NCBI GenBank assembly: GCA_008933995.1 | Contig: WARS01000015.1 | Span: 16,252,957 to 16,316,956 of the forward strand | Reading direction: 5' to 3' | Source: Datnioides undecimradiatus | Lineage: Eukaryota; Chordata; Actinopteri; Lobotiformes; Datnioididae | Length of the DNA stretch: 64,000 nucleotides | In this document: positions 1 through 19,845 of the stretch, one piece after another | Layout of the letters: each line of letters starts with the position of its first letter | How positions within the stretch are numbered: the first letter of the stretch is position 1 | Translations under genes and position numbers: made by a program | Notes under the pieces: generated by a model | The model's database searches: none | What the model was told of the DNA's origin: nothing | What the model saw: the letters and a program-made list of their open reading frames with translations, nothing else

Positions 1-1022
1 CACTTGTATCTGTCTCATAATAATCTGTTTGATGCCTACCAGTCAGGTTTCATTGCATTTACATTGCTGTCACTGCCAATCACATTAGCCCACTTCATGA
101 CCTCATTCAGTGCATATCTGATTTTATAAATTGGATGGCAACAAACTTTTTACAATTGCAGGAGGGCAAAACAGAAATTATTTAAGTAGGTCCCAAATCT
201 CGTGTCTGCGTCCTCCCATTTTTAACTCCCCCGTCTGTCAAGCCCTGCGAACATGCCAAAAACCTTGGAGTTACATTAGATGCAGATCTTAATTTTCAGA
301 GACACATAGCTGATAACACCAGGACAGCCTTTTACCACCTTAAAAATGTAGCAAAAAGAAGATCCTTCTTATCTTTTTCGGACTCTGAAAAGCTGGTTCA
401 TGCTTTTATCTCCTGCCAACTTTTGCTTGACTGACAAAGCAGGCCTTATATAAACTCCAGCTTATCCAGAATGCCGCAACTAGAGTTTTAACCAAAAGTA
501 TATGAACATATTAATCCTATTTTAACCTTGCTGCATTGGCTCTCTATAAAGCAAATAATTGATTTTAAAGTACTTCTTCTTGTAAGTCTATGAATGGTTT
601 AGCCCCTACCTATGTTGACGATATGCTCACAAAATACACGCCCAACAAAACTCTAAGATGATCAAATAAAAGGCCTCTTGATGTACCTCAAATCCATACC
701 AAATCAGCCAATGGTGCTTTTAGTTTCTATGCTCCAACTATCTGAAATAACCTACCACTCGAACTGAGATCTGCCACAACAGTATCCTCCTTCAAAAGTG
801 GTCTTAAAACATATCTCTTTTCACAGGCTTTTACATGACCGATGTGTATGCTTCTTTTATTATTCTTTTATTATTACTGTTTTTTTAGTATCCTATTTTG
901 TTATGTATTTATAATGTCTGTATATATGTTATACATATATATATGTTTTATGGTGTGTTCTCACTTTTATTTGTTAAGCACATTGAGTCATGAAATGTGC
1001 TAAATAAACATGACTTGACAAG
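1..1022 (+). mobile_element. 3' end of an L2/CR1-like LINE, decayed
   Basis: This is the tail of a non-LTR retrotransposon, cut by the window edge. Pieces of the C-terminal part of a reverse-transcriptase ORF can be read in shifting frames: 'AFYHLKNVAKRRSFLSFSDS' near 325, 'FKVLLL'-like coding near 565, 'GLAPTYVDDMLTKY' near 600-640, and 'FSFYAPT' followed by 'NLPLELRSATTVSSFKSGLK' near 720-810. This is the usual order in fish L2-type elements. Frameshifts and stops break the frame, so it is inactive. The 3' UTR closes with a 'GTGCTAAATAAACATGACTTGAC' style tail near 1000-1020, as in many fish LINEs. Family assignment rests on memory of these peptide motifs, and the exact clade is uncertain. 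Confidence 0.75.
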
Positions 1023-2180
1023 AAAGACATAAAAAATGGCTTGAGCAATAAGGAGGCATTAATCTTGTCATGCTTTTGCAATGACAGTTATCCTGTTTGT
1101 TCTCTTCGTCATGTGGGATCCGCCCATATATTGTTGTCAAACTTCATTCTGGACGCATTAAGACTTTGAGAAAGAGTTAAGCAGCAAGATTTGCATTTGG
1201 TGAGTAGAATAAACTGATAATACATGGAATAGATAACTACTGAGAGAAATAATAACCTACACATGTACCTGTATACCTGTATATGTAGCCATCGACCATA
1301 ATTTCATTAATGAAAACAGTTGGTGAAAACAGGTGGTGAATGTGCAGGTCAGAATAACTGGCAATTATGAAACTAACTACAGCATACTGTTACAGAAGAT
1401 ATACTATCAGTGTTAAAAGATACAACACCTCGGGTAAATGCAACATCATGGTCTAGGTGAAGAGGAAACAGTGAAAACAATAAAATGCTAACAGCCAAAA
1501 AAGAAAGCTCATTTTATTTTTGCAAAGTTGGCTTAGTTTACTGAGACAAAATTATGAATGCCTGTATACTCAGTGAACAAAAATGTGTATATAATTAAAT
1601 ATAATTTTTTAAAAGTTGTATTCAATACTTTATCACATCTAATATATTTAAGGCACCTTTATTTAAACTCATGTATTCAGATGTTTAAAACTGAAGCCAC
1701 TTAAACTTAACTCTTAAGCTGTGTTGCATTTTATGGTTACATTTTGGCTACTAAATCAATAAATTACCTCTGTATTAATATCTAATACTAAACAAAATGC
1801 ACTTATATATGCAGTATATATGTCATTTTTACATAATTGTAAAACTATGCATTTAGTTAGCAACATGGTTGACTAGTTGTGACATATAATTAAGGGGGGA
1901 AAAAACAAAAAATTAAAAATTAATCACTATGCGACATGTAAGCATAGTGTCTAATATAGCTTTGAGCTAAATACTGTTATCAGAGTTTTGGGCTGATATT
2001 TTACATGTTGGTAACACTCATTTGAGTCTGCAATGCCACAGGGGTACTTATCACATTTCTACTGAGCACTCTCCATAACTTTGTGAATAACCTAATTTTA
2101 ATAAGAACATTGTTTATGAAGAGTGCAGTAATTGAGCTGTGGTACTTTTTTTTGTTTACTTTATTTCCTTTTAATTTTAG
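1023..2180 (+). other. 5' region of GIMAP-like gene 1: presumed UTR exon and first introns
   Basis: AT-rich DNA between the LINE tail and the start exon of GIMAP-like gene 1. A candidate 5' UTR exon ends at 1199 with the donor GGTGAGTAGA. The same exon end and donor recur before gene 2 (9705), which supports it. A long T-rich tract then leads to an acceptor at 2179-2180. The transcription start is not visible. Apart from short AT tracts I see nothing else here. Confidence 0.45.
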
Positions 2181-2277
2181 TGTCATCATTTTGCATGTTT
2201 CCTACAACCCAACAGACAGCAACCTAAGTTACTGGAACTGGAACTTCTCCAAAAAGAAGGCTACTTCAGCATCCAGT

Positions 2278-5200
2278 ATGTCTGGTAAGACTTCATAGTA
2301 TGGATATGGTCTGTCATTAAGGAGGAAGGATTGGAAGAGGAGCAGGCAGCTGTGATAGTTAGTGACAAGTTAAAAGGCAAGAATTCTGATGTATCCAGGT
2401 CAATCTTATTAACTGAAAAGCAAATAATTTTTGCATAATCTCAAGAGGATAACAATTTCAGCTAAATCTAAATTGGAGACATTTGGTTCATTATCACATA
2501 ATACACATAAGGACAATTACTTTAATATAACTTCCAAATCCTTCCACTTTACTTCAACATAACATCCTAGATTGTTCCCTCATGGAATTCTGAACATTTT
2601 TAATTCTTTTGTCATTATTTTTTACAGCCACCAAACCCCGAATTGTCATTTTTGGAAAAAGTCAGTCTGAAAAGACAACACTGAGTAACTTCTTCAGAGG
2701 AAAATCCTACACAGTAGTGAAGGCAGCTGATGTCTTCTGTCTGCCAATGGATAAAGTAAAACATCAGATGAAAAGGTGTGTTGCTCAGTGCCCCCCTGGA
2801 CCAAATGTTCTGCTGCTGTTGGTGAAGCCCTCTGATTTCAGTGAAAAAGACAGACAAAAACTGAAACTCGCCCTGAGCTTATTTGGACAAGATGCCTCTA
2901 AATACATGATCACTGTCTTAACACAAAATGATGAAGGAGGGAATTCTTCAGTGACCCAACTCATACAAGACTGCAGACAAAGACAGCACAGAATAAATTT
3001 GGGTGAAAGGGATTTTCCTGACTATGCTCTTAAAGAATTGTTGGAGAAAATGGAAGACATTGTGATTGAAAACAGAGGACAGTATTTAAACTTTACTGAA
3101 GATGCTGATCCCATGTCAGCAGCTGAAGGTCCAACACAACCACTAAACTTAGTACTATGTGGGAGACACGGGGCTTGGAAGACATTAGCTGCTAATGCCA
3201 TTTTGGGAGAAAAAAAGTTCGGTCCGCCTGCTGACTCATCAGAGTGTATTAAAAATGAGGCACAGGTGTGTGAACGATGGGTTTCAGTGGTGAAGCTGCC
3301 TGTCCTGTATGGAAAATCTAAGGAGGCAGCAATGAAGGAATCATACCAGTGTATCTCCCTCTGTGATCCTGAAGGTGTCACTGCCTTCGCCCTGGTCCTA
3401 CCTTTAGATCCCCCAGATGAGGAAGACAAGGAAGAATTAGAGACCATCCAGGACATTTTCAACTTTAAAGTTGATAGTTTTACCATGGTTCTTTTTGCTA
3501 CACAGAGAAATCCTAACACTCCAGAAGTTGTGAGGTTTGTACAGAAAAACAGAGACATTCAGCATCTCTTTCAGAGCTGTGGTGGACGATATATTATCTT
3601 CAACATCGACTACAAACAGCATGTCTCTGAGGTGATACATACTGTGGAAAAGATGAAAGCTGTAACATGCACAGGTGTCACAAAAGATCTGTTTCCAAAA
3701 CGTCCCACGGTTAAAAGACATACATCGTCTTTAAATGTGGAAGACCCGAATAAAGACTTTAACAGGAAGCAGCACCTTAGACGCTCTTTCCAGATGCAAC
3801 CAAATAGACAGTTTCGCAGCATGGAGCTGAGGAAAGAGCCTCTTAGGATGGAGCCAAGTAGACCGTCTCTTGGAATGAAACCATGTAGAGAGTCTGAGAA
3901 GTTGGAGCCGAGTAAAGAATGTCTGAGGATGGTGCTTATTGGGAAGACTGGCAGTGGAAAGAGTGCCACTGCAAACACAATTGTGGGCAAACAAGCTTTT
4001 GAATCTAAAGTCAGCATGAATTCAGTGACTACGCTGTGCCAAAAAGAAGAGGGAGAGATTGACGGACGGTCTATTGCTGTGGTCGACACCCCTGGCTTGT
4101 TTGACACAAATCTGTCCAGCAATCAAGTTCAAAAGGAGATTATGGAATGCTTTAGGTTGTTGGCTCCAGGACCTCATGTGTTCTTATTAGTGCTGCAGAT
4201 TGGTCGCTTTACAAAAGAGGAGCAAGATACTGTGGAGCTTATCAAGACATTTTTTGGCAAGAAGTCAGAAGACTTCATCATTTTGATATTCACAAGAGGA
4301 GATGATCTGAAAGAGCAAACAATAGAGGACTACATAGAATCAGACAAGGGGGGCCTTATCAAAAAGCTGACAACTGACTGTGGAGAAAGATACCAGGTCT
4401 TCGACAACAAGGATCAAAAGAATCGCTCTCAAGTAAGCGAGTTGCTGACCAAGATTGAATCAATGTTAAAGAAAAATGGTGGTGGCTGCTTCACCTCAGA
4501 CATGTTCAAAATAGCAGAATCATCTGAAGAACAGGAAAGTGAAGAAATCATGAGGGATAAAGATGAAGAGATACAGAGGAAGAAGACGATCCTTGAAGGA
4601 AAACATCAAGACAAAATGCAACAAAGGAAAATACTGGTAGAGCCCAAATTTCATCAGGATAAGACAAGACAACAGGAAAAAAGAGATGAGGAGGAAAAGA
4701 ACATACAAAGGCAGGAAGAAAAAGAAAAGGAACAAAAACTCAAATTTCACGAGAAGAAAATAAATTATGGAGTAGATAAAACAATTGCTGAGAGAATATT
4801 ATTTCTACAAGATAGAGACAGAGTGAAAAAGGAACAAGAGGCTAGGGAGAATAAAAAGAGGGTAAAGGGATATCAAGGCAATGAACTGAGACATGAGGAG
4901 GAGCCAACACCTCTTGAAGAGCTCCTACAAGGTGAGCAGGTATTGAAAGAAATACAAAAGAGCTATAACAAACTGGAGGAAATGTTGAGGACGACTGCAG
5001 AGGAGGCAAAGAAGCAAGACAGTTATGACACGAAACACATATATGCGAATGATATGTCAGATGACAGTGGGAAGAATGACAGGGAAATAGAGGATCTAAA
5101 GCAGAAGCAACAAAAACATAATGAGTTCATGATAGGACAGCTGTGCAGAAAAAAAGTGTACCAGAAAACCTATGATGATCTGAAGAAAAAACAGCAGGAG

Positions 5201-5356
5201 GAAATGAAAAGACTGATAATGACACAATTCGACAATGAACGAACAAAGAAAAAACAAATCAATGACCTAAAGAAAATACATGAGGAGGAAATAAATGACT
5301 GGGTACAGGAACATGTAAGAAAAGCAACTGAGGACAAGGTTTGTTGCATTTTATGA
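2278..5356 (+). CDS. gimap8-like: GIMAP8-like AIG1-type GTPase, gene 1 (911 aa, two coding exons)
   Basis: Join 2278-2284 and 2628-5356. The start is ATG 2278 in an exon probably running 2181-2284 (donor GTAAGA, acceptor TTTTTTACAG), giving [14 protein letters not shown]; the frame is open but lacks an ATG further up. Three AIG1 modules follow. Module 1 (about 5-165) has an altered P-loop GKSQSEKT at 12-19. Module 2 (about 174-360) has GRHGAWKT at 181-188. Module 3 (about 434-625) is canonical, with GKTGSGKS at 441-448, DTPGLFDT, the AIG1 box FTKEEQDT and RGDD. Residues 389-433 are five nonapeptide repeats. Residues about 625-900 are Lys/Glu-rich coiled coil. The protein ends CCIL, a CaaX box. 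GIMAP proteins are membrane-linked GTPases of lymphoid survival and immunity; three modules is the mammalian GIMAP8 plan. Module 3 alone probably binds GTP. A polyadenylation signal lies at 5666. The family call is firm; orthology to GIMAP8 is inference. Confidence 0.9.
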
Positions 5357-5665
5357 GATAGTTTCAGCTTTTGCACAGTTTCAGCTGCAAAGCTGTAAAC
5401 ATTTGTTTTGACATCTTAAGACATTAAGTAGTTGTTCATGTAACTTTTGTATTCAAGACATGTACTAAGTTGACATTGTTCAGACCACCATTATTTTAAC
5501 AATGTCTGACATAAAAATACAGTATAGCTGTGTAGTTGTATTCTAACATTTAATCTTTATTTAAGCTAAATTGATTGTAACAGCTCATTTCATTATACAT
5601 TATACGTTGCACATTCATTGTCTCTTACATTAAGTATCTGTGTATCAAACCTGATGACCGAAGCA

Positions 5666-5671
5666 AATAAA
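5666..5671 (+). terminator. Polyadenylation signal of GIMAP-like gene 1
   Basis: AATAAA lies about 310 bases after the stop codon, followed by a TG-rich stretch (5700-5740) of the kind seen downstream of cleavage sites. A second AATAAA near 5845 could serve as an alternative. Confidence 0.5.
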
Positions 5672-5749
5672 TCAATGTATAAAGTGCATAATCACAAATG
5701 TACTTGTTTGTAAATGTATGTATATGTTTGTATTTGTATCACATTTTAT

Positions 5750-7044
5750 GTAGTGCTTGATGAGCTGATTGAAATGTTTATAATCTGAACAATGTGAAAA
5801 TACATTCTGTTGTCTGCTATAAAGATAAAAAATTGCATATGGATGAATAAACTGCTTAAAGCATTACATGTTAGTGCAACTTTTTTTTTCCTTGACACAT
5901 GAAAATTGATAAGCACTTTCAATTGTAACAGCCTCACAACTGATTCTATTAAAATATTTAAACATATTTAAAATTCAAATTAAAAGGTAGCTAACCTGTC
6001 TGTGGCTCCTTACGTTTTAGCTTAAGTAGACCTACAGAATAAATTACTTGAATGCAGTCTGATTGAGAGAGAGTCAGCAGAAATAATGAACTCGGGCAGA
6101 TACTGCAGAAGAATGTGGGACCTTCTAGACCTTGTGTGTTCTTACTGAAAGACATTTCCTGCTTACACTTAACCGTCAAATGCTGAGTCTGTTTTGACAG
6201 AAGACAATCAGTCTTTTAGTTTCCACCTCATTTAAAAAGGAGGGCAAAATATGAATGAATCTGTAGGAAAGACTGTCCTTTTGTCAAATGTAGGACCTAC
6301 ATACAGTTAACCTCTTTACTCTGAAGTGAGTATCAGATTTCATTACAGAGCATCTGGATGAGGACAAGTTTTACCTGTTTATTTTTGTTTGCCGTCAATG
6401 CTGTGCTATGCAGCAGACCTTGCTTGGTTGCTGTTCCAACCGTCTGCTCCAACTGCAAAGACAACTGTTGTTTCAGACTGCTTCATTGTTCAGGTTCATT
6501 CCACAGTTGACTTATTCTATCAACTCTGCCAGGTAGCAGATCAGCTAAGTAAGTTTTATAAAGCTTCTTTCACCTCAGCCTGAATGTGACACCCTGGATC
6601 AGTCAGTGCCCTGCCTAGTCTTTGATCTGCTTTTAGGAAGAAGGACACCAGAGGATTTCACCTTGTGAGAATTCAAATGTATGACAATACATACAATCAA
6701 TGACTACATCCTTTAGTAGTCGTCGGTGTGTAGTTTTTAGATGTTCAAACTCGGATTTTGTATTATTAATCTGTGTTAAAATTAGGTTGTTAAAGTTAGC
6801 ATTCTTGTATTACAAGGTTATACTTACATTTATTAAAATTTAATTTTACTTTGCCACTTTTGGCAACCAAAATACTGCAATGAGTAAGTATTGTAAAACA
6901 ATAACATACAGAAAGTAAATGTATATTTCAATATACTTTTACATTTGTTGAGCACAGGTGATGAGTGCAGAAATGAAGGAGAGCCATAACCATATTACAG
7001 AAGAAACTGATAAAAAAAAAAACCTCTAAATGTTATACAGCGTA
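5750..7044. other. AT-rich spacer after GIMAP-like gene 1
   Basis: No gene is supported here. The open frames of about 60 codons have no recognisable motif and no splice context. Only A/T-rich tracts are seen. Confidence 0.5.
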
Positions 7045-7261
7045 TTACTCTGTTTCTCTGGCCCGAAACATTGCTCAATTTTGCACATCTTATTTATGTA
7101 AATTTGTAAATATTTTAGTTCTATATTCTATTTTTATCTTATTCAGTTTTTATCTTTTGTACTATTTTATGTTATTACTGTTGGTGCTGCTGTAATAACC
7201 AAATTTCCCTCAGGGGATTAATAAAGTACTTCTATTCTATTCTATTCTATTCTATTCTATT
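7045..7261 (+). mobile_element. 3' tail of a LINE or LINE-mobilised SINE with (TTCTA)n end
   Basis: The stretch ends in CAGGGGATTAATAAAGTACT followed by a (TTCTA)n repeat at about 7229-7261. A 'ttccc-(t/c)-ggggattaataaagta' end with a short tandem tail is the usual 3' terminus of common fish non-LTR elements. The 5' part is AT-rich with no coding signal. The family is not resolved. Confidence 0.6.
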
Positions 7262-7367
7262 GTTCTAACATAACTGTGTCTGTGCAAGATATAAGAGCTG
7301 TATAAAGAGCTTCACCACTAACATGTGTTTGCAAGTAGTTAACAATAACTAATTAGATGCTCTAGAG

Positions 7368-7964
7368 CACATGTGTCAAACTCAAGGACCGCGGGCCAAA
7401 TGTGGCGAGAACTTAAAAGGTCTAATTGTCCTATAATAAATAAGTCAAAAGGGTGCATTGACCATAAACTACATTTCCCATAATGCACTAATGCCGATTA
7501 TGTTACCCGCGAAGTGCCGACATCCTGCCACTACATTGCAGTGTTTCCACATCAATGCCATTTTCCGAACAAGTGGAATTGAATAATACAAACAATGATC
7601 CCAAAATGTCCAGGAAGAGAAAAATTGATGCAGATGGAAGGCTGCTTCAAGAAAGATGGGAAGGCACGTTGATTGATGGAGTAATGTGGGTTTCATAACC
7701 TGACAAATTAAAAGGATTTATGTTATAACAGCAACAAGCAAACATATTTTTTTTTACATCTATGCAAATATACATATGTACTATTTGTAAGTTGAATAAG
7801 TAAAAAATTAAGAGTTATTTAACATTAAGGAGTAGTTGCATTTATTTTACATTACATTTAGTTACATTTAGCTGCATTTATACTGTCTTACAGTTACGTC
7901 TGGCCCTTTGAGGGCAACCATTATGCTGATGCGGCCCTCGGTGACAATGAGTTTGACACCCCTG
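7368..7964 (+). mobile_element. Non-autonomous hAT (Charlie-type) element with transposase N-terminal remnant
   Basis: The ends are imperfect inverted repeats: ATGTGTCAAACTCAAGG at the left and GAGTTTGACACCCCTG at the right, the usual ends of a hAT group common in vertebrates. Inside, + strand positions about 7599-7660 read MSRKRKIDADGRLLQERWE. This resembles the N-terminus of the hAT-derived transposase family related to GTF2IRD2/ZBED proteins ('KRK-D-ENR-FQ-RWE'). After about 50 codons the reading ends in AT-rich filler, so the element is internally deleted. No clean 8-bp target duplication is seen. It lies just upstream of the GIMAP remnant at 8030. Confidence 0.7.
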
Positions 7965-8029
7965 TATTTTTCCAATGAAAGGGTCCCACTTCAAAATTTT
8001 TTACCATATAGGGAAAAATTCTATTAAAG

Positions 8030-8340
8030 TCAAGGAATTTAAGAAGAAAAATTACAAGAAGGCCAGAAAGCAAGCTGAAGAGTTAAAGCATTGAGTTCAG
8101 GCATAGATTCAGCATGGACTTTGTAACTGATGAAATGTATGACTAGGAAATGGATGCTATAAACTGGGCAACAACAAACCAGATTCAGAAACACGAAGAG
8201 AAATTAAACTTTGCACACAAATCAATCGTTAAACTAAAGAAGGTACACAAGTAAGAAATAAATGATTGGATACAGAAACATGTGAATAAAGCCACAAAAG
8301 CTAAGGCTTGTTTTATTTTACAAGATGCTTCCTCATAACA
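8030..8340 (+). pseudogene. GIMAP-like remnant A (C-terminal coiled coil and CaaX only)
   Basis: This is a decayed copy of the 3' end of the neighbouring GIMAP-like genes. About 8058-8090 reads KARKQAEELKH, matching [11 protein letters not shown] of gene 2. About 8245-8320 reads EINDWIQKHVNKATKAKACF-IL, matching [14 protein letters not shown] of gene 1 and [14 protein letters not shown] of gene 2. Several in-frame stops and a frameshift lie between these blocks, and the GTPase modules are gone. The last four codons before the old stop position still encode CFIL at 8309-8320, a CaaX-like end. A hAT fragment lies about 65 bases upstream. It shows that the cluster once had more copies. Confidence 0.8.
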
Positions 8341-9220
8341 GGTTTTCCCTGCAGGACGTTTGTTGCTTTGACACACCTTCAAAAAATATTCATCTTCTTA
8401 TTGCTGCAAAAGGGCTATTATCACATATATAACATCATTTTTGTTTTAACATCCAAAGGGACAAGGGACAGAAATATCTAATTTTAAAAGTCTATGTATA
8501 AATCTCTCCTAAAAATCTCTCTCTTGTTTATGCAAATAAACCACACTATTGAAAAATGGTGGATACAGTCTTTAAATCACTGGGTAGAGTCCAGATTAGT
8601 TGACTTAATCCAAACAGCACCCAACACACTGTTCCTTTTGTCACTGATTTTGATAACGATAGTTGCAGTCTCAGAGTCTACAGGCAGGCTGCCCGTTGAG
8701 CCAGCTGACAAGTCACTCCGCACTTATCTTAACATGTTGAAACAGCACAGTGTAGGCTGTTTAAGCTCAACACCTCTGAAAAAATACTCAAATAACATGG
8801 TAAAAATTAACCTTCTTTAGGCAATAAGGCTGAGTAATACAACCTAAAGTCAACAGAACAATAAATGATCACTTTTACCTTTGTATCCGTTTGATTAAAT
8901 AAAGCAATCTTTTACTATATACACATCTGCACAAGATTCTCCATCCTCATCTCTTATTAGTTCTCGTATGGAACAGTAAGCAAAATCAGACATAGCATGG
9001 TTAATGGTGATGACCTAAAACTGCTGAGGGAACAATGCCAAATATATATTAGGTATGTTTGAAAGTCATTGTGTCAGTTTTATTAACTTTTTGGTTAATC
9101 GCTCAGCCTTACTAAACAAAAGTGCATTTACAGAAATGAAACGGTGAAGAAGCTCAGATGATTCATTTATTGTGACACATAAATGTCATTTTAGTCATGC
9201 TATTTTAATTACTTGTTTAC
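8341..9220. other. Spacer between GIMAP remnant A and gene 2 promoter region
   Basis: No supported gene. A + strand open frame at 8494-8820 (108 codons) shows no family motif, signal peptide or splice context that I trust. Otherwise AT-rich DNA. Confidence 0.4.
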
Positions 9221-9239
9221 GTGTGGCTGCGCCCTTGAC

Positions 9240-9256
9240 TAGTTTCACTTTTCGTT
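9240..9256 (+). promoter_or_regulatory. ISRE/IRF-like element upstream of GIMAP-like gene 2
   Basis: AGTTTCACTTTTCGT closely fits the interferon-stimulated response element (AGTTTCNNTTTC), with one extra T in the second half. It lies about 450 bases before the end of the presumed first exon of gene 2 and just upstream of a short GC-richer stretch (9260-9380). No equally good match is seen before gene 1. Interferon control is an inference from this one motif. Confidence 0.4.
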
Positions 9257-9639
9257 TGCTGTGATGCGGAAGCAAATGTACTCTGCCACACCTATTCCAG
9301 CCTTCAAGGAAATGCCACCAGAAAACCGGAGGCCCTCAGAGAAGTTTTGATTTAAAAGTTGAGGTTACAACGGCCCAGACACTCTAAAATTCTGTGAAAC
9401 GTATCCTCAGAGGTGTGCATGTTTTTTTGTATATGCATGTTTATGTTGTCACTTTGCCAGTTAATGTGATATGCCTTACCCTGTTTACCATAAATCGCTT
9501 TTTAAATTACTAGTCATGGAAAAGTGGCTAATCTGGTTTTCTGTGAACTGCTTGTTAGACTATTATTACCATGCTGAGCTATTTAACTGTTGTCATACCT
9601 GCCCTGCCCTGTTAATCATGCTGACAAAAAGGATGGCTT

Positions 9640-9705
9640 AGATAAGTTAATCTCATTGCGCACCTGGTACTTTGAAGAAAGATTACTTGACAAGAATTTT
9701 TGCTG
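9640..9705 (+). other. Presumed 5' UTR exon of GIMAP-like gene 2
   Basis: The exon end TTGCTG is followed by the donor GGTGAGTAGA at 9706. The stretch from 'CTTTGA' to the donor resembles that before gene 1 (about 1160-1199), including TTTG, A-rich core and the identical GTGAGTAGA. This is best explained as a duplicated first exon. Its 5' edge is not defined. Confidence 0.5.
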
Positions 9706-11151
9706 GTGAGTAGACAATCAAAAAATAAATATAATGATTGAAGAATGTATAATAATTGATATAATATATGATTATATATGCAAAATGTATAAATGTATTA
9801 TAGAATATACTTTTTAAAATTGACTGATTAAACCAGTTTGTCGATAATGCTCAGGTGTTAATTGCTTTGCAAAGCCAAGAGCCACAGTTGGAGGTACATT
9901 CAAACGTGCTGCTCTTGTGTATTTTTGTTTTTTGCTATATTGAGTTAGTGAGGAAACGTGAGGTTTTATTTTCTCTTTTTCTTTTGGTTAGTGGTAAGAC
10001 CTGAGTTTAGACAGTATTATTTGGTTTTGATCTTTTGTTTTGCTGAACAGGGAGAAGCCACCAAGAAACCTGGTTTCATTTTGCCATGTTTGCATGAATT
10101 CTGAAAATTAGGAATAAACTTAGGAAACACTGTTAAATAATGGTCAGTTTTTTAAACATGTTGATAAAAAGCCATTCATGTCTGTATTCCAAGCCAATGA
10201 AATTTAGCCAGAGTCTGTTTCGGTAAGTATATTTCATGAGACTAAATAATTTACCTAAGGAAACAACATTTACTATATACTATACATACCTGTAGTATGG
10301 AGGCTATTTTCTTCATTTTAACTCAATAAACTGTAATTTACTGATATCAGAAGAGGGAGTCTGGCCATCCACAAGGCAACAGTGGTAGAGAGGTAAATGT
10401 AACAATGTGTAGAACCACTAAAAAAAACTTTAATTTACACCAACCATTAGGAGTCAACAATCACAATGGTTTTGGTGAGTTTTACTTTGTTTCTGTCAAG
10501 TGTGCTGTATATTAATAAAATTTTAATAATGTTGATTGAAGTCTGGTCAGTTTGAACAGAGCATTGATATCAAGGTATGGTATTCATTTGTTAAGGATGT
10601 GGCCAATGTGTATCTAAATACTGTGTAATGACCAGCCTACCAAGTTATGGTATTTATATGTGTAGGTATTTTAGGTATTGATGTTAGTTGAATTAAGGTG
10701 AGCGACATAGTGTTGTGCTGTGGCCAAAGTTAGCTATGGAAATACTGTTCCCCCAAGTATGTGTGCTGATATGATGTAGCCTACACTAATGTGCAGCAGA
10801 GAAGTGTGGCATTTCATTGTGGTTTCTGTCAATGTCTGACAGATGAGTGTAGCCTACATCATGACAATCATCACCTTGGTGGGAATTTGCAACTCCATGA
10901 GCAAAAACATAAATGTTGTCTATATAAAGTACCACTTAGAACTTCTATGAAGCATATCTTTTGAAGCATGTCAGTTTGACCACAGCAATAACAACTCCAG
11001 TTCCACAGCTTTTAACTCTAACAAATGGTTTTAATCAATTACTTTGTATGACTTTCAAACTTCGTCTCCGCATTTCACTATAACTTTTCCTTGTTTCCTG
11101 AATCACAGCAGACACCTAACAGCTTCTCCATTTGAATTTCTGTCCCTCTAG
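9706..11151 (+). other. First intron of GIMAP-like gene 2
   Basis: AT-rich intron of about 1.45 kb between the presumed UTR exon and the start exon at 11152 (acceptor TCTGTCCCTCTAG). Other possible donors occur near 10221 (TTTCG-GTAAGTAT) and 10391, so alternative leader exons are possible. No repeat family is recognised. Confidence 0.4.
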
Positions 11152-11170
11152 TTTGGGCCAAAGTGACAAT

Positions 11171-14100
11171 ATGGCAGATGCATCCCTTATGTCAGCATCT
11201 GGTAATTATGGTGAGAATATACACACGTGCACACACACATAAAACATTTATCTCTGAAGTATATATAGTTAGAAAAGACAATGGTGTAGATCATACCAGA
11301 GCTTAAGTCATAAGTCACAGTTAATAGGAGGCTAGAAACCTTATATGAATCCCAAAGTTGTTGTATGTCTGACGATACAAGCCGTTTTTCTTGTAAATTG
11401 AACCTAATCAATAGCAGGTGCAGAGATTTCCAAATTTGAGACAAATATCAAAATCATCAGCATAAAATGGATTTGAAAACATTTTATTCTGAAATTCACA
11501 GGCTAAAATTATGACAGGAGAACAGCCATAACCTTGTTTGTTCATTCACCTCCTTGCTTAATGTTTTTAAATTCATGATTTTTATGTCTATAGAGTGATT
11601 TCATTGTCCTCATTATTCAGCTTTAATTATGCTTGTCCACAAATGCCTCACATAGTTTAATGTGCAAACCACTAACAAAATGGTAAATGTACTTTTAAAA
11701 TGTACTCATGAGACTGTGTGAATTTAATCCTTTGACTCTTCTTGTTTTACAGCGTCTGAGCTCAAAGTTGTAGTATTTGGAAAGAGTCAAAATGAAAAGA
11801 CTGCACTAAGTAACTTCATCACAAGGGGAAACGATGTCCATCATATAAAAATATCAAAGCAAAGTTCAGTCAGCTATGGGGAATGGAGGAAAAAAAAGGT
11901 AACGGTGGTAAACACCTCAGATGCCTTCAGTCTGCCTGAGGATAAACTGAAACACGAGATGAAAAAGTATGTAGCTCTTTGCCCTCCAGGACCAAATGTT
12001 GTCCTCCTGTTAGTGAAGCCTTCTGATTTCAGTGAAAGTGACAGACAACAATTAAAGATTATTCTCAGTTTCTTTGGCCAAGATGCTTTTAAATACTCAA
12101 TGGTCATTACTGAGACACAAAATGAGGAAGAACAGAATTCCTCAGTTAACCAGATAATCCAAGACTGCAGTCAGAGGCAGCACAGGATTTCCTTTGATAA
12201 AAATGATCTTTCTGATGATGATTATCGAGCACTGATGCAAAAGATGGAGAAAATAGTGACTGATAACAAAGGAGGACATCTGAACTGCACTGAAAGGGCT
12301 GATCCCACAACAGTTTCCGTAACTTCCAAACCTGCTTTGAACCTAGTGTTGTGTGGGAGACATGGGACCTGGAAGACATTAGCAGCTAATGCCATTTTGG
12401 GAGAACAAAAGTTTGGTCCACATGCTGACTCATCAGAGTGTATTAAAAATGATGCACAGGTGTGTGGACGTATGTTTTCTCTAGTGGAGCTGCCTGCTTT
12501 GTATGGAAAACCTCAGGAGACAACAAAAAAGGAATCACTTAAGTGTATGTCTCTTTGTGATCCTGATGGTGTGCATGCCTTCATTCTGGTCCTACCTGTT
12601 GGTCCCCTCACTGACGAAATCAAGAAAGAGTTAGAGACCATCCAGAACACATTCAGCTCTCAAGTCAATGACTTCACCATGATTCTGTTCACTGTGGAGT
12701 CGGATCCTAATTCTCCAGCCGTTGTCAATTATGTAAAAAGCGACAGAGATATCCAGCAGCTATGTCAGAGCTGCGGTGGACGATACATTATCTTCAACAT
12801 CAAAGACAAGCAGCAAGTCTCTGAGGTGTTAAACACTGTGGATAAGATGACAGTTGTGGGATCCAGGTGCTTCACAAAACAAATGATTGCCACACCTCTA
12901 GAGAAAGAGGACATAAGTTGGAAATATGAACTGAAATTGGCAGAATACCAGAGTAGAGAATGTCTGAGGATGGTGCTTATTGGGAAGACTGGCAGTGGGA
13001 AGAGTGCCACTGCAAACACCATTCTGAGTCAAAACACCTTCCAATCTAAGGCCTCCATGAAGTCAGTGACCAGGTTTTGCCGAAAAGCAACAGGAGAGAT
13101 TGATGGGCAGTCTATTGCTGTGGTTGACACACCTGGCTTGTTTGACACAACCCTGTCGAAGACTGAAGTTCAAGAGGAGCTTGTGAAATGCATCAGTTTG
13201 TTGGCTCCAGGACCTCATGTGTTTTTACTAGTGATGCAGATTGGTCGCTTTACAAAAGAGGAACAAGACACCTTGGAGCTCATCAAATCATTTTTTGGGG
13301 AGAAGTCAGGTGAATTCATCATTATTGTTTTCACCAGAGGAGATGATCTCGAAAGTGTAACACCTGAGAGTTACTTAGAAGACAGTGATGACTTTGTCAG
13401 AAAAATGATTGCTGACTGTGGAGGAAGATACCAGGTCTTCAACAACAGAGATCAGAATTGTGCTCAAGTCAAACAGCTTCTAGGCAAAATTAAGTCAGTG
13501 ATGAAGAAAAATGGTGACAGTTGCTACACTTCTGAGATGTTCCAAGAAGCTGAGGCAGCCATACAAAAGGAAATGGGCAGAATCCTGACAGAAAAGGAAG
13601 AAGAGATAAAGAGAGATAAAGAGGAGGTGGAAAGAAAACATCAAGAAGAAATACAAGCAAAGAAAAAAGAATTGGCTGAACAAATTGCTAAAAGTGAACA
13701 AGAAAGAGAACTTAAAACCAAACTGTTCAAGGAAAAGAGGGAATACATTAAGAAAAAGCAGGAAATGATTAAGAGACAAGAAGAAGAAGAGAGAAAGGCA
13801 GAGGAAATAATGACAAAAAAGCAAGATGAGATTCAACGAATTCAGTTGGAAGCCATGGGGAAAAAAAGAAATCATGGGCCACAAAATAATCCAACAGCTG
13901 ACAAAAAGCTGATAGAGGACAGAGAAAAGATGAGAAAAGAACAAGAGGAATGGGAAAAGAAACAAAAAGAGTGGTGGGAGAAGCGATATCAAGATCAACA
14001 GAGACGACAGGAGGAGCAAGCACGACTTGAAAAGCTCAGAGAGGAATATGCGCAGGAAGTAGAAAGATATAATAAAAAAAGAAAAGAAGATCAAATTAGA

Positions 14101-14538
14101 AAAGATCAACAGGAGAAAATTTTAACAGAACTACAAAACTCGCTGACTCAAAATCTTGCTCTGATGACGAAGAAACATGAAGAAGAGGCCAGAAAGAAAG
14201 CTGAAGAAATGAATGAATTCAGATTCAGTTACACCAAGGACTTTACAGATCTGGTGGAAAAGCATGGCGAGCAAATAGAGGATCTGAAGCAGAAACAACA
14301 AAAACACAATGACCTCATAATCCAACAACTGAGCAAACACAAAACCTTTCGGAAAGACTTTAAAAAACTGAAGCTAAAACAAGAGCAAGAAATGGATAAC
14401 CTGATGAATTTATCTCCACTGAACATGGAAAATCTGAGCAAAGAGATTGATGAACTGCAGGCAAAACATGATGAGGAAATAAATGAGTGGATACAAGAAC
14501 ATGTGAAAAAGGCCAGAGCTAACTGTTCCATCTTATGA
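11171..14538 (+). CDS. gimap8-like: GIMAP8-like AIG1-type GTPase, gene 2 (938 aa, two coding exons)
   Basis: Join 11171-11201 and 11753-14538. The start exon (11152-11201) encodes [10 protein letters not shown] and splices in frame (donor GTAATT, acceptor TTGTTTTACAG). Module 1 (about 14-195) has a non-canonical P-loop GKSQNEKT at 20-27 and NTSD where DTPG is expected. Module 2 (about 205-390) has GRHGTWKT at 211-218. Module 3 (about 414-610) is canonical, with GKTGSGKS at 421-428, [16 protein letters not shown] and RGDD. Residues about 610-930 are a Lys/Glu/Gln-rich coiled coil. The last four residues, CSIL, form a CaaX box whose final Leu favours geranylgeranyl transfer. It is a close paralogue of gene 1, with a longer module 1 and no nonapeptide linker. 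Likely a membrane-attached immune GTPase. An ISRE-like site lies upstream, and AATAAA lies at 14705. Confidence 0.9.
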
Positions 14539-14704
14539 GATGTGATGCTTTTCCTTAAGCAATTTTACAGTTTCAAACTGTGGACCAGGGAGATCTCATT
14601 TTGTGTTTTTAATCTTTTTTTTTTTTTTCCAAAACTACAAAGTCCCATCAGTAGTTATTGTGTTAATCTTTACCTTCTGAAAGTTTCTTTATTTTTACAG
14701 AAAT

Positions 14705-14710
14705 AATAAA
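14705..14710 (+). terminator. Polyadenylation signal of GIMAP-like gene 2
   Basis: AATAAA about 170 bases after the stop codon. The first 3' UTR bases after the stop (TGAGATG) are shared with the trace in remnant B. Confidence 0.5.
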
Positions 14711-16404
14711 GTGCCACAATACATATATTTTAGGTATTTCTGGAGTGTATTCACTCTCTAATGTCTAAGATTTCTGTAGAATAAAGGTAAAGTTGCTATT
14801 ATAATCAATAATTAATTTAGATTTTGGATTTTATTCTGTCATTACAAACAATAACCAGTTAATCTCTAATTGCAACTGTCTGTTATGTCTGCAAATTTTG
14901 TTTAATGTTTTAAAATAATCTTTTTTATTTCTTGGACATAAGTTAAATAAACTGATCTATACATGCATATATTGTAACATGTATTTCAGATATATTAAAA
15001 CACACATTGACTGTATTTAACTAAATATATGGATATTTGTAATCTCACAAACAACTTAATGTGCATGGGTAATCACAATTACTTTGAAAAAAACAGCAGA
15101 GGTTCGATACTGTGTTTGCAATGCTTTTGATTTTTGAATTTTTTTTTTCCTACAAGGTGATATGCTTATACTGGCTATTCAGAGTGTATTTGTATTGTAT
15201 TGTATTTGCAATGTGCATGTGGAACTTTGGAAAATTGATAATAAAAATGTTTAATGCTTAATACGCTATAACTATTAAACCACATATGTATATGCCAAGC
15301 AGAATCACAATCCTCCAGTTGTAGAGAAGCCACGTCACAGATAAATGCAGCTACTTTTCTATAGAAAAAAAAAAATATTACAATTAGTGTGTAAGCATTG
15401 AGTATGATATTGCATCAGCTGTATTAACATGGCTCTGGCTTCATATCTTTCCACAAAAGTAACTAACAGTTTTGATATTTAAATGATACTGCTTAGAGTT
15501 CTGCAAACAAAAAGGTATTTTTCCAACTGTAGACACTGTACTACACATGAGTGACCATTTTGTATCTAATCTTCCCCCGAATCTTACTGCACTCATAAAT
15601 CTTGGAGTTAATAAAATCACGTAACACTTTACATTCTATGCAGACTGTAAGTCCTTTTATGTACTGAGGTGTGTTGATGTGCAATGAGTAGGTGAGAAAT
15701 CGATTAACTGAATGAAATAATCACCAATTATTTGGATGAGTAATCACGGCTGATCATTATATCTGCAATATATATTCAGTCTAGCAGTTAAATGTTCAAA
15801 CAGACACTTTTAGTTTTGGGGGAGTTAAAATATCTTATATTTTGTTTTGACAAGTATAATTAAAGTTATTTACATCTTGGAGTACAATTTGTACTAGTGC
15901 AAATGCATACCAAGGTCATATCTTTCATTACCATACAAGTTTGTGAGAATACAAGTTTTACTTAGAGAAATGCTAGAATGAATATCAAAACATGATTCCA
16001 GATGGAGGGTGATTCGTGAAATGCAGAAATAGTTGGCAGAGATGTGATTTTACAGTAAATAATTTAACTTTTTTAATGAATTAAATAAGGGTTAATGATT
16101 GATCATCCAATCATTCCCATTATGTTTTATTTCTGCTGCACTGAGTTTGTCTACATGCACACCTAGTTTTGAGCCATACAGCTGCACTGATTATATTTGG
16201 ATTATATATATGCGAGAAAGATGAGCAGCCTGGTTGTTGAGTTACCTTTATACACAGTTCTAAGAATTTCCAGCCCTTTGATCTGATTGGAAAATTAAAA
16301 TGTATCCTCTATATTTCCGTTCTCAAACTCAGTACACTATATATTATCATAACTTTTGTTTTGCTAATCACTTCTGCTAAACCCAACTGTGTAGACACAC
16401 AGAC
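14711..16404. other. AT-rich spacer between gene 2 and remnant B
   Basis: No gene supported. The sequence is AT-rich with short T and A runs and a small (TTGTA)n patch near 15188-15210. No repeat family is recognised. Confidence 0.4.
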
Positions 16405-17170
16405 AATGATCAGACACACTGACAAGGTCAAAAAAATGATTGCCGACTGTGGAGGAGGATTCCAAGTCTTCAACAACAACGACCAGAAGAATAATACACA
16501 AGTCAAACACCTGCTGGACAATGTAGAGAAAATGGGAAAGAGTGGTGGCAGTTGCACAAAAGAGATGTTCCAAGGAGCTGAGTCTGCCATGCAGGAGAAG
16601 TAAGAAAGTAGAGATGCAAAGAGAGAAGGCAGAACTTGAAAGTAAACATGATCAAGAAATTCAAGCAAAGAAGAAAAAATTAAGCGAGAGAGCAGAGAGA
16701 TGGAGCACTGAGGGAAAAGGAAGAGTCCATTCACAAAAAACATGAGAATGAAATATATGGACACAATTTTGGGAACGACAACTTGACGCTCTGGAGAAAA
16801 CAAATCAAATCTGATTTAGAAAAAGCACAACTGAAGAGTTAAATCTGGTGCAAGATAGAGAAGAGATGAGGTGAGAACGAAGGGCTTGGCAGAAGGATCA
16901 CTAAGAATGATGGGAGAAATGATGTCAAGAGGATCAACAGAGACAGCAGGAGGAGCAAATGGGGAATATGAGAAGAAAAGGAAAGAAGAGAGTCTTGGAA
17001 GAGAACTAGAGGACAGAATGTGGGAAAAGGTAAACTTCTGAGAGACAGCAAGAAATAAAGAAGAAAACCACAGAGGAGGCCAGAAAGCAGGCTGAAGAAT
17101 TCAATGAACTGAGACAGAAATACACAAAAGACGTTGTGGTTCTGAATGAAAAACAAGGAAATGGAGGACT

Positions 17171-17221
<51 letters not shown>

Positions 17222-17445
17222 CAAAAGCAACAAGAAAAGAATTGCCTCATACTGAAACAGCTGATCATGACCAAAACCCACCCATTTCCACAGACTGAAC
17301 AAAAAAGCAGGAAGAAGAAATGAATGAGATTGTACAGATTATTGCTAAAGGAGATGCAGACAATCAGCATGAAGAAACCAATGACTTTGCAGAGAAACAT
17401 GCAGAGAAAGCCTCAGAAGATAAATCTTGCTGCATTTTATCAGAT
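16405..17445 (+). pseudogene. GIMAP-like remnant B (5'-truncated, frameshifted)
   Basis: This is a broken copy matching gene 2 from inside GTPase module 3 to the C-terminus. It opens with [18 protein letters not shown] (about 16423-16476; gene 2 has [18 protein letters not shown]), continues through QVKHLLDNVEKM and CTKEMFQGAESAMQEK, and hits a stop at 16601. Coiled-coil fragments follow in shifting frames (KAELESKHDQEIQAKKKK, later QTEEF/ELRQKYTKD-like text). The end reads EETNDFAEKH...SCCIL at about 17374-17439, and the expected TGA after CCIL is TCA. The P-loop is absent. A (GATA)n tract at 17171-17221 has expanded inside the stretch that encodes EDLKQKQQ in the intact genes. Confidence 0.85.
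17171..17221 (+). repeat. (GATA)n microsatellite inside GIMAP remnant B
   Basis: About 12 tandem copies of GATA, placed between sequence matching 'GAGGAT-CT' and 'CAAAAGCAACAA' of the intact paralogues. It therefore grew within former coding sequence. Confidence 0.95.
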
Positions 17446-17770
17446 GCTGTCTTTTGTCTACACGTCACAAGAGCTGCACGACTGTGAGAGCTATAGGGTT
17501 TGATTTCACTTTGTTTTCTATGCTGAAGCTTAACATCTATGGTGACAATGTGCAAATGTGCAGGGGCAGGATTGCAGACCTGCCGGGGCAAATTAACAGC
17601 CTGTAACTCCAGTCCTTCTGGTGACGTCCTTATTAGACGTTATTTGCTGTACTGACTCAACAAAGTTGCAGTAGGCCATGACACTAGCGGCAGCTATGGG
17701 CAGTATTAGGTTGGACAGTGGAGACAGCAAAAAGAAAGTGTTTGTTTGAAAACAGCAACAGCATTAATTA
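17446..17770. other. Spacer between remnant B and the hAT element
   Basis: Unique-looking DNA following the remnant; the first part probably derives from the old 3' UTR. Nothing else is recognised. Confidence 0.3.
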
Positions 17771-17778
17771 ATTATAAT

Positions 17779-19235
17779 TAGGGGTGGGACTTTAATGCGT
17801 CAATTATGATTAATTAATTACAAAAAATTAACAAGTTAAAAAAAAATAACGCATTTAATCGCTGTTTGCATTCCAAACAACGCGGAACGTTTGTCAGTGC
17901 ACGATTTCCTGGTACACTGATTACACTGATGCACACGTCAGAGCTCGGCTAACGGCTACCAAAAAGCATGGTTTTGTGCAAATTGTGAAAAAAAGAGTTT
18001 GCATACAACCAAAGCACTTCAACGCTACGGTACCGTCTAAATGCAAAGCATGTTGCAGCAAGCACAGAAACCACCGGAGCTGTCCCGGTCCGAGTACGAA
18101 CAAGAGGTGTCGGCTAGCGGATCGATCCAAATATCAATATTATCGATACCAACGTTGGTATTGATATTGATCGATACCATTGTAATGAGATCGATACTTT
18201 ACTCTTTCATCAAAGAGGCGACCTGGCTGTATGTGTATGCAAAAGTGCCGCTCCTGTCACAGCGCGGAGCAGGCGCACTTTGCTCCTCCTCCCCGTGTTG
18301 TTTTGATGTTGTACTGAGAATTTTTATTTAATTTTTGTATTGTAGTTTCTGATCACTCTGCCTGGAAAGAAGAATTTGTTTTAATTTGTTTTCGACTGAT
18401 AATTTTGTGCACTTTGTTTGGTTAAGAAGAAAAACCCAGACATGACAATGTTTGTTTTATTATGATAATAAAGTATCTTCGCCCAAATTCTGTCCTGGGT
18501 TTAACTAATTAATAATCCAAAGCAAAAATCACAAAAACAATTAAAGTCATGAAAATTCATTCCGATTTAGCATTTGATGATGCATCCACCTTAATTATTA
18601 AAATGTATCAGTATCGGTATCGGTATTGATATCGGCGATATTGGCCCTGTATTTACTTGGTATCGGATCGATACCAAATATTGCAGTATCGCACACCACT
18701 AGTGTCGGCAGCCCAAACTCGATCAAATGACTGGCTTCAGGACCAAAATTAGTAAGTGTTATAGCCTAACGTACAAAATAATGTGTGCTAACTTGGAGTT
18801 TAAAGGAGATAAGGAGATTTAAGCTTGTCAAATGACCATTTATATTTCTGGTTGTTTTGCCAGAAGAAGAAAGAAGTAGAAATTGCACTTTATGTTGAAT
18901 TGTTGGGGGGGGGGGGGGGGTCAATACTAGTCAATACTGTTCTGAAAAAGTACTTAAAATGGCACTTTAACTTTAGGTCTATTCAGTTTTGGCCAGGGAT
19001 ATTTTCTATTTCTTTTTCTACTGTTCTGAATTGAAATGCAATTAAATGCATTTTTCCAGACATTAAAAGAGCTTGAGTTTACAATATTCATGTCTATTCA
19101 AATCCATTTAAATTAAAAAATGTTGCTTTTTTGGGGCAAACATTGTTATGCGATTAAAATGCGATTAATCGAGATTAATTAATTACAAAGCCTCTAATCA
19201 ATTACATAAATTTTTTTAATCGAGTCCCACCCCTA
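17779..19235 (+). mobile_element. hAT-type DNA transposon (outer element), interrupted
   Basis: The terminal inverted repeats are TAGGGGTGGGACT at the left and AGTCCCACCCCTA at the right, a perfect match. They are flanked by the 8-bp target duplication ATTATAAT (17771-17778 and 19236-19243), the length used by hAT elements. Near both ends are ATTAATTA/GCGATTAAT-rich subterminal repeats. At about 17968-18056 the + strand reads VLCKLCEKKEFAY followed by STSTLRYRLNAKH, a BED zinc-finger remnant of a hAT transposase; the rest of the transposase is absent. A 587-bp second element splits it at 18115-18701; without that insert and its duplicated target it would be about 0.86 kb. A G16 run lies at 18905-18920. 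Confidence 0.85.
18115..18701. mobile_element. hAT-type short element nested in the outer hAT
   Basis: Flanked by an 8-bp duplication GTGTCGGC (18107-18114 and 18702-18709). The ends read TAGCGG... and ...CACCACTA, an imperfect terminal repeat (TAGTGG by complement). Subterminal DNA is rich in inverted GATCGATACC / GGTATCGGTATC motifs, known from a group of fish hAT elements. No transposase coding is seen. It inserted after the outer element had settled. Confidence 0.85.
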
Positions 19236-19243
19236 ATTATAAT

Positions 19244-19845
19244 ATAATATTATATAATTATTATTAGATATTTCTTCACTGAACAATCAATAAATTGGCA
19301 CTGAGGGCTTTTATCAATGGAAAAGATGTTTTTGCTCTCTTTATGACTGGATTTGGCAAATACTCTCCTACTACGTCGCATTGCGATCTGATTGGCTGAC
19401 GTTAGTCTTTGGCAGATAGTCATATACAAATGGTTCATCCGATCACCTGCTAATGTTTTAAAATGTACCTGTCTTTTTCCCAAACGGCTTCCAAGAATGA
19501 CTGTTGACTCACAAGATGACTCACATCGCCACATCGTTTTACTTGGAATCATGGGAATCTTGAAAACCTATTTTTATTTTATTTCACTGTAAAACCAGGG
19601 TTGTTATTTTTAAAGAGCCTTAAAGGCATGTTTGGTTGCAAACAAATGATCTGTATACAATAACACAAAGTAGATTCCTGATATAATCATGCATTAAAAT
19701 CAAAGAGAGTGTGCTATGTGCTTCAATAATGTTTTGTATTACATCACATTGGTACACAGTAGATGTATTATTACACACCTCTCACAGAGAAGAGATGGAT
19801 GACACACACACCAAATGTCAGTCAGAGAATAAGACTTTTTCTTAC
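19244..19845. other. prdm6 intron segment between the hAT pair and the PR-domain exon
   Basis: Non-coding under the nested-intron reading. No motif or repeat family is recognised. Confidence 0.3.

Follow-up and report, generated by a model that had tools for sequence, protein, structure and literature searches.

In one survey, zebrafish has 673 nested gene pairs (5.3%), the two genes of a simple nested pair are read from opposite strands in 74.3% of human and 77.8% of mouse cases, and internal nested genes are described in the introduction as typically short and intronless (PMC8467205). One table in another study gives nested antiparallel pairs the top human–mouse conservation rate among its overlap classes, 51.97% (PMC2330155). 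The expansion of GIMAP genes in fish is also already known (PMC9245644, PMC13403563). Here we analysed a 64,000-nucleotide stretch of the genome of the fish Datnioides undecimradiatus (the window; GenBank assembly GCA_008933995.1, contig WARS01000015.1, called C328 below) that carries part of the developmental repressor gene prdm6, and we found, with high confidence, that a cluster of GIMAP8-like genes is nested in antisense orientation within intron 4 of a prdm6 gene that is complete in other respects. A preliminary description, made from the letters of the window, had placed an immune cluster in a single intron of this gene, and exons 4 and 5 do bracket the cluster. GIMAP proteins are GTP-controlled scaffolds on immune-cell membranes, and human GIMAP8 has three AIG1 domains.

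As in other vertebrate nested genes, a single intron of a long host encloses the internal genes completely, and these are read from the opposite strand. The locus differs from the typical short and intronless case, as given in PMC8467205, in that there are three genes, each with at least two coding exons, and in that they form a cluster of a fast-evolving immune family, decayed members included, in one intron. Nested genes are common, and GIMAP genes in prdm6 are a further instance of this arrangement and not a new mechanism. Among the literature matches listed, including those of a full-text search for prdm6 together with gimap, we found nothing on GIMAP genes nested in prdm6, and the co-mentions were unrelated as judged by their titles and abstracts. 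What lifts the locus above the routine is that a whole small cluster of a birth-and-death immune family sits inside one intron of an intact developmental gene.

The window corresponds to C328:16252957–16316956 in an assembly of 581,297,614 bases and 497 contigs. We numbered positions relative to the window, with 0 as the base to the left of window base 1 and negative numbers further left. A working version of the human PRDM6 protein sequence served as the tblastn probe for the following features.

49219–48487, minus strand: prdm6 coding exon 1 from the ATG, 733 bases, GT donor (tblastn and joins)
39047–38899, minus strand: prdm6 exon 2, AG/GT borders, fitting phase (tblastn and joins)
37192–37034, minus strand: prdm6 exon 3, coding for the initial portion of the PR domain (tblastn, joins and profile)
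19973–19846, minus strand: prdm6 exon 4, GT donor at 19845–19844 (tblastn and joins)
1–19845, minus strand: part of prdm6 intron 4 inside the window; the remaining 15,496 bases lie to its left
-15496 to -15620 (C328:16237460–16237336), minus strand: prdm6 exon 5, E 3.7e-22
-24492 to -24873 (C328:16228464–16228083), minus strand: prdm6 exon 6, E 4.8e-45
-35070 to -35246 (C328:16217886–16217710), minus strand: prdm6 exon 7, E 5.3e-34
-40446 to -40560 (C328:16212510–16212396), minus strand: prdm6 exon 8, E 3.2e-16

Pieces of exons 1–4 matched the probe at E 1.7e-12 to 7.1e-23 and joined in frame at AG/GT borders, and the best-matching solved chains for the spliced product were the PR domains of PRDM12, PRDM2 and PRDM14. 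The 3' end of exon 4 splits an Arg codon in phase 2, with the donor G at base 19845 and the GT in place, which is where the preliminary description had seen the gene end within the window. In 1–19845 we found no tblastn match to the probe up to E 10; for PRDM6 residues past 343, the best match in the whole window reached E 2.3. A strict C2H2 pattern gave a single chance match in 1–19845 (5348, minus strand), and four relaxed motifs for the SET end and the fingers, not built on the PRDM6 probe, gave none there. Simulated copies of exon 5 planted in 1–19845 with 10, 20, 30 or 40% of their residues changed were recovered at E < 1e-3 in 40/40, 40/40, 39/40 and 39/40 trials, respectively. Given the probe and motif searches and this power check, it was right to say that the next PRDM6 exons are absent from the minus strand down to position 1.

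The remainder of the gene lay where the preliminary description had suggested looking, to the left of the window. In the fetched 100 kilobases (kb) adjoining the window, exons 5–8 followed on the minus strand of the same contig, correctly ordered and with fitting phases. All eight exons are thereby on one contig, and each of the seven introns is bordered by GT and AG, with phases that match; their sizes are 9439, 1706, 17060, 35341, 8871, 10196 and 5199 bases (introns 1–7). At 35,341 bases, intron 4 is the longest, about twice the size of intron 3. The predicted protein has 655 residues, without an internal stop and with a normal stop at its end. It is 81.5% identical to this version of the human protein over a 444-column alignment and 86.7% identical over the first 30 residues, whereas residues 31–211, a long low-complexity part of exon 1, do not align reliably.

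Intron 4 contains three intact GIMAP8-like genes (A2, A and B, from left to right) and two decayed pieces, all on the plus strand.

-10678 to -10651 (C328:16242278–16242305), plus strand: short coding exon of gene A2
-10154 to -7435 (C328:16242802–16245521), plus strand: main exon of gene A2
2278–2284, plus strand: short coding exon of GIMAP8-like gene A, ATGTCTG followed by GTAAG (sequence prediction)
2628–5356, plus strand: main exon of gene A, with three AIG1 domains, a charged coiled-coil-like tail and a CCIL end
8219–8320, plus strand: decayed GIMAP tail fragment with an in-frame stop; CFIL still readable at the corresponding position, its stop codon gone
11171–11201, plus strand: short coding exon of GIMAP8-like gene B (sequence prediction)
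11753–14538, plus strand: main exon of gene B, with three AIG1 domains, a charged coiled-coil-like tail and a CSIL end
16349–17439, plus strand: decayed GIMAP gene, comprising the end of the third GTPase domain and the tail, with a broken frame and SCCIL; stop codon lost

The two intact and two decayed GIMAP-like genes that had been described opposite prdm6 were all present, and the cluster extends beyond the window, with a third intact gene, A2, 10.7–7.4 kb to its left. A2, A and B sit between the consecutive prdm6 exons 4 and 5, and the five GIMAP copies run along the plus strand of a gene read from the minus strand. No GIMAP match fell outside intron 4 in the joined 164 kb of window and left flank, and none turned up in another nine stretches of 10 kb each, 40 kb in all on the left side and 50 kb on the right. 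The open frames of A and B (920 and 936 codons) exceed anything in 30 block shuffles of 1–19800, in which frames reached at most 333 codons. A, A2 and B are predicted to encode proteins of 911, 915 and 938 amino acids, each with a phase-1 intron after the short coding exon and a main frame free of interruptions. The ATG that comes first in A2 is missing from gene A, whose translation must begin at an ATG further on. We also considered and dropped an origin of these genes as retrocopies, because all three retain the predicted phase-1 intron.

The nested genes encode AIG1-type GTPases. Against the AIG1 profile (PF04548; cut-off 27 bits), A and B scored at E 1.8e-98 and 9.2e-105, and A2 gave three matches, the best stretch reaching 235.4 bits. 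All three proteins have the three AIG1 stretches that characterize GIMAP8-like GTPases of bony fish, from which they differ in their location in a prdm6 intron. In A and B, the canonical nucleotide-binding motifs, including TRGDD, occur in domain 3 only, and domains 1 and 2 have an altered P-loop; the A2 translation contains the same canonical motif strings as domain 3 of A and B. The nearest solved chains to gene B were GIMAP4, 7, 2, 1 and 5, which matched over its third domain. The proteins end in CCIL (A and A2) or CSIL (B), a CaaX-type end with Leu as the last residue, and the decayed copies retain CFIL (8219–8320) and CCIL (17300–17439); the intact ends of A and B are at 5342–5356 and 14524–14538. 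Such ends are found in 12 of the 2173 window frames of at least 20 codons, A and B included. Prenylation of the nested proteins is predicted from their last four residues. A prenylated GIMAP protein would not be without precedent, since a review gives an AIG1-family GTPase of Arabidopsis as a prenylated defence protein (PMC6866125); the fish proteins differ from this plant protein in having three AIG1 domains.

The closest relatives among those sampled are triple-domain GIMAP genes of contig C129, in the same genome, with frames of 932 and 853 codons. The 932-codon copy shares a CaaX-type end (CIIL) with the nested genes; the 853-codon copy differs, having a hydrophobic C-terminal stretch and no CaaX end. 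Because CaaX ends occur in the nested genes and the 932-codon copy, and a hydrophobic tail in the 853-codon copy, the predicted proteins seem to have in common that they attach to membranes, through prenylation or a tail anchor. The two kinds of end among the nested genes and their C129 relatives may mean that members of a single subfamily attach in two different ways.

On both sides of prdm6 the neighbours are like those in human. Exons of the cyclophilin family, which we take to be ppic from their place, lie on the plus strand at 60.5–61.5 kb of the window. Beyond exon 8, at about -72.4 to -68.4 kb, a probe made from a working version of the first part of human CEP120 matched cep120-like exons, also on the plus strand. 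A human gene list has PPIC, PRDM6 and CEP120 one after another, in this order (PMC9318831), and prdm6 is flanked here, as in human, by ppic-like and cep120-like exons. These neighbours, together with a PR/SET domain followed by C2H2 finger exons, identify the host gene as prdm6. Between the cluster and exon 4 lies one further feature that bears on the assembly.

17781–19233, strand not assigned: DNA transposon-like element whose inverted ends match over 26 columns (96%)

Two alternatives to the nesting had been raised with the preliminary description, a prdm6 that has lost its 3' end and a misassembly at about 17.5–19.8 kb. Seen from the window alone, prdm6 could pass for a broken and dying gene: the PR domain of spliced exons 1–4 covers the Pfam profile only to position 90 of 123, and reading beyond the exon 4 donor meets an immediate stop. 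Exons 5–8, however, stand 15–40 kb further left on the same contig and strand, in phase and ending in a normal stop, and the protein reaches 81.5% identity in the alignment with the human sequence, so that loss of the 3' end is excluded; with the complete 655-residue frame a truncated prdm6 is refuted, and we give this explanation practically no chance. A misassembly would mean that a GIMAP cluster from elsewhere had been fused with prdm6 at repeats flanking it left and right. The transposon between the cluster and exon 4 is a classic place for such a misjoin, as its end on the exon 4 side is a high-copy repeat, found at 80–95% identity in at least 39 other places of the genome (40 scored of 281 candidates), and the contig is not gap-free everywhere, since 33 N occur in a 10-kb stretch on its right-hand side beyond the window. 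However, prdm6 is correct in order, strand and phase to the left and to the right of the would-be insert, so that for a misjoin the same intron would have to contain two errors that fit each other, and there is not a single N in the joined 164 kb made up of the window and the 100 kb to its left. Nor has one piece of DNA been placed twice as far as the C129 genes are concerned: of the fetched loci they are the nearest further triple-domain genes, and they are only about 55–62% identical to the nested genes in domains 2–3. With the expected gene order on the flanks as well, the misassembly finds no support in the sequence, and we regard it as highly improbable.

How the cluster arose can be read less firmly. 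A census of the genome gave at least 86 AIG1 domain matches on 24 contigs (both counts being lower bounds), 9 of which belong to the three nested genes; because the AIG1 profile also matched in 12 of 14 control genomes, in 7 above the cut-off, other GTPases may be among the weak census matches. In a 16-row tree built on the best-matching domain, with 11 other fetched loci included, in which 3 of 13 inner branches were starred and 8 were open, A and A2 paired at 100/100, B joined them at 85/83, below the tool's star mark, and the C129 932- and 853-codon genes stood next to the nested group at 92/97. A five-protein tree without an outgroup set the nested genes apart from the two C129 genes at 100/100. 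Over domains 2–3, synonymous divergence (dS) was 0.52–0.55 between A or A2 and B, against 0.79–0.83 to the C129 genes. Over their length, A and B share 467 of 855 residues, with a nonsynonymous divergence (dN) of 0.31 and a dS of 0.80; A and A2 share 826 of 908, with a dN of 0.044 and a dS of 0.073. Nucleotide identity between A and A2, compared over 2510–5307, rises along the main-exon region from 84–93% in the first 0.6 kb through 93–96% in the middle to 97–100% over 4108–5307. This suggests that A and A2 are a recent pair and is the gradient expected from gene conversion; a higher rate of change in the first domain could contribute as well.

As the three nested genes group together, growth of the cluster inside the intron is somewhat better supported than insertion as a cluster, and we think it probable, on moderate support, that one founder copy entered and was then duplicated there. 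The alternative, in which several GIMAP copies or a ready-made cluster entered the intron together, concerns the origin and leaves the nesting as it is. In its favour, the split between A and B is old by the dS values above, so it may predate the nesting, and B is about as close over the whole protein to the C129 932-codon copy (53.7% identity, dN 0.32) as to A (54.1%, dN 0.32), which slightly lowers the preference for a single founder. Both trees, in contrast, group the nested genes to the exclusion of both C129 genes, and dS within the nest is below that to C129. We consider joint entry possible but doubtful. In a separate observation, the closest other AIG1 gene among the matches listed on C328, about 225 kb to the right of the window (C328:16541506–16542687), has two domain matches, a 643-codon frame, a hydrophobic C terminus and a tree branch apart from the nested genes.

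Several points weigh against an antisense cluster of functional genes grown in place from one founder. The nesting was examined in one fish genome; the join of the cluster to prdm6, the splicing of exon 4 to exon 5 across 35 kb and the transcription of the locus are predicted from the assembled sequence. For the single founder, in addition to the similarity of B to the C129 932-codon copy, support is moderate, with B joining below the star mark, 8 of 13 branches open and 11 loci fetched; gene conversion can make neighbouring genes look like sisters, and C129 frames of 557 and 449 codons fall away from the nested genes in the domain tree. The dN/dS of 0.60 between A and A2 indicates weak constraint. 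Finally, for GAAANNGAAA, taken up with the idea of interferon sites, we counted 13 matches across the window, with 5.2 expected, and none in the 2 kb preceding A or B. Of TTCNNNGAA words there are 4 upstream of B and 0 upstream of A (raw counts, without a control).

A nested origin in prdm6 could have proceeded as follows. A founder copy related to the triple-domain C129 genes would have entered intron 4 and then been duplicated in tandem, with B and A types separating early and A and A2 arising by a recent duplication, their 3' halves perhaps kept alike by gene conversion; other GIMAP copies would have decayed and transposons filled in. Transcription of prdm6 would cross the cluster, which would be spliced out with the intron, and the GIMAP genes would be transcribed in the opposite direction from promoters and 5' exons of their own. 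Their products may act in immune cells as GTPases attached to membranes by a prenylated C terminus, with the two degenerate G domains perhaps serving in binding and the third, canonical domain in nucleotide control. A fast-evolving immune family would then have duplicated and decayed within the intron of a conserved developmental gene without breaking its host. Intron 4 of prdm6 is a clean place for measuring the effects of nesting on both partners, and the locus carries a warning for annotation, as a partial view of it could split prdm6 or call it truncated.

The nesting might also be functional, with immune-induced antisense transcription of the GIMAP genes through the 35-kb intron lowering or re-routing prdm6, for instance towards a transcript that ends after exon 4. 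Such an effect would link immune activation to prdm6 as a smooth-muscle and developmental repressor; we hold it to be very improbable. Past the exon 4 donor, read-through meets the immediate stop noted above, and the minus strand has its first AATAAA-type signal after about 260 bases (without a chance control).

Other searches returned nothing that bears on the genes: GIMAP B had no match among phage records, and part of it matched 5 stretches in the collection viral_contigs, 0 of which were confirmed; prdm6 exons 2–4 fitted 57 stretches in genome_contigs, again with 0 confirmed; and scans of the window for transfer RNAs and Rfam families gave no match. Further elements lie in and near the cluster. 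At 1–1020 a decayed fragment (frame 186–434) resembles the 3' end of what is presumably a retrotransposon without long terminal repeats, and it had no Pfam match. At 7370–7965, an element with TGTCAAACTCAAGG...GTTTGACACC ends resembles a non-autonomous transposon, presumably of the hAT type. Inside the element at 17781–19233, the segment 18130–18690 contains the word ATCGATACC several times, together with an inverted match of 46 columns (83%), and may be a second, nested element. In prdm6 intron 3, a minisatellite with 23/45-base-pair units at 30750–30967 overlaps open frames on both strands.

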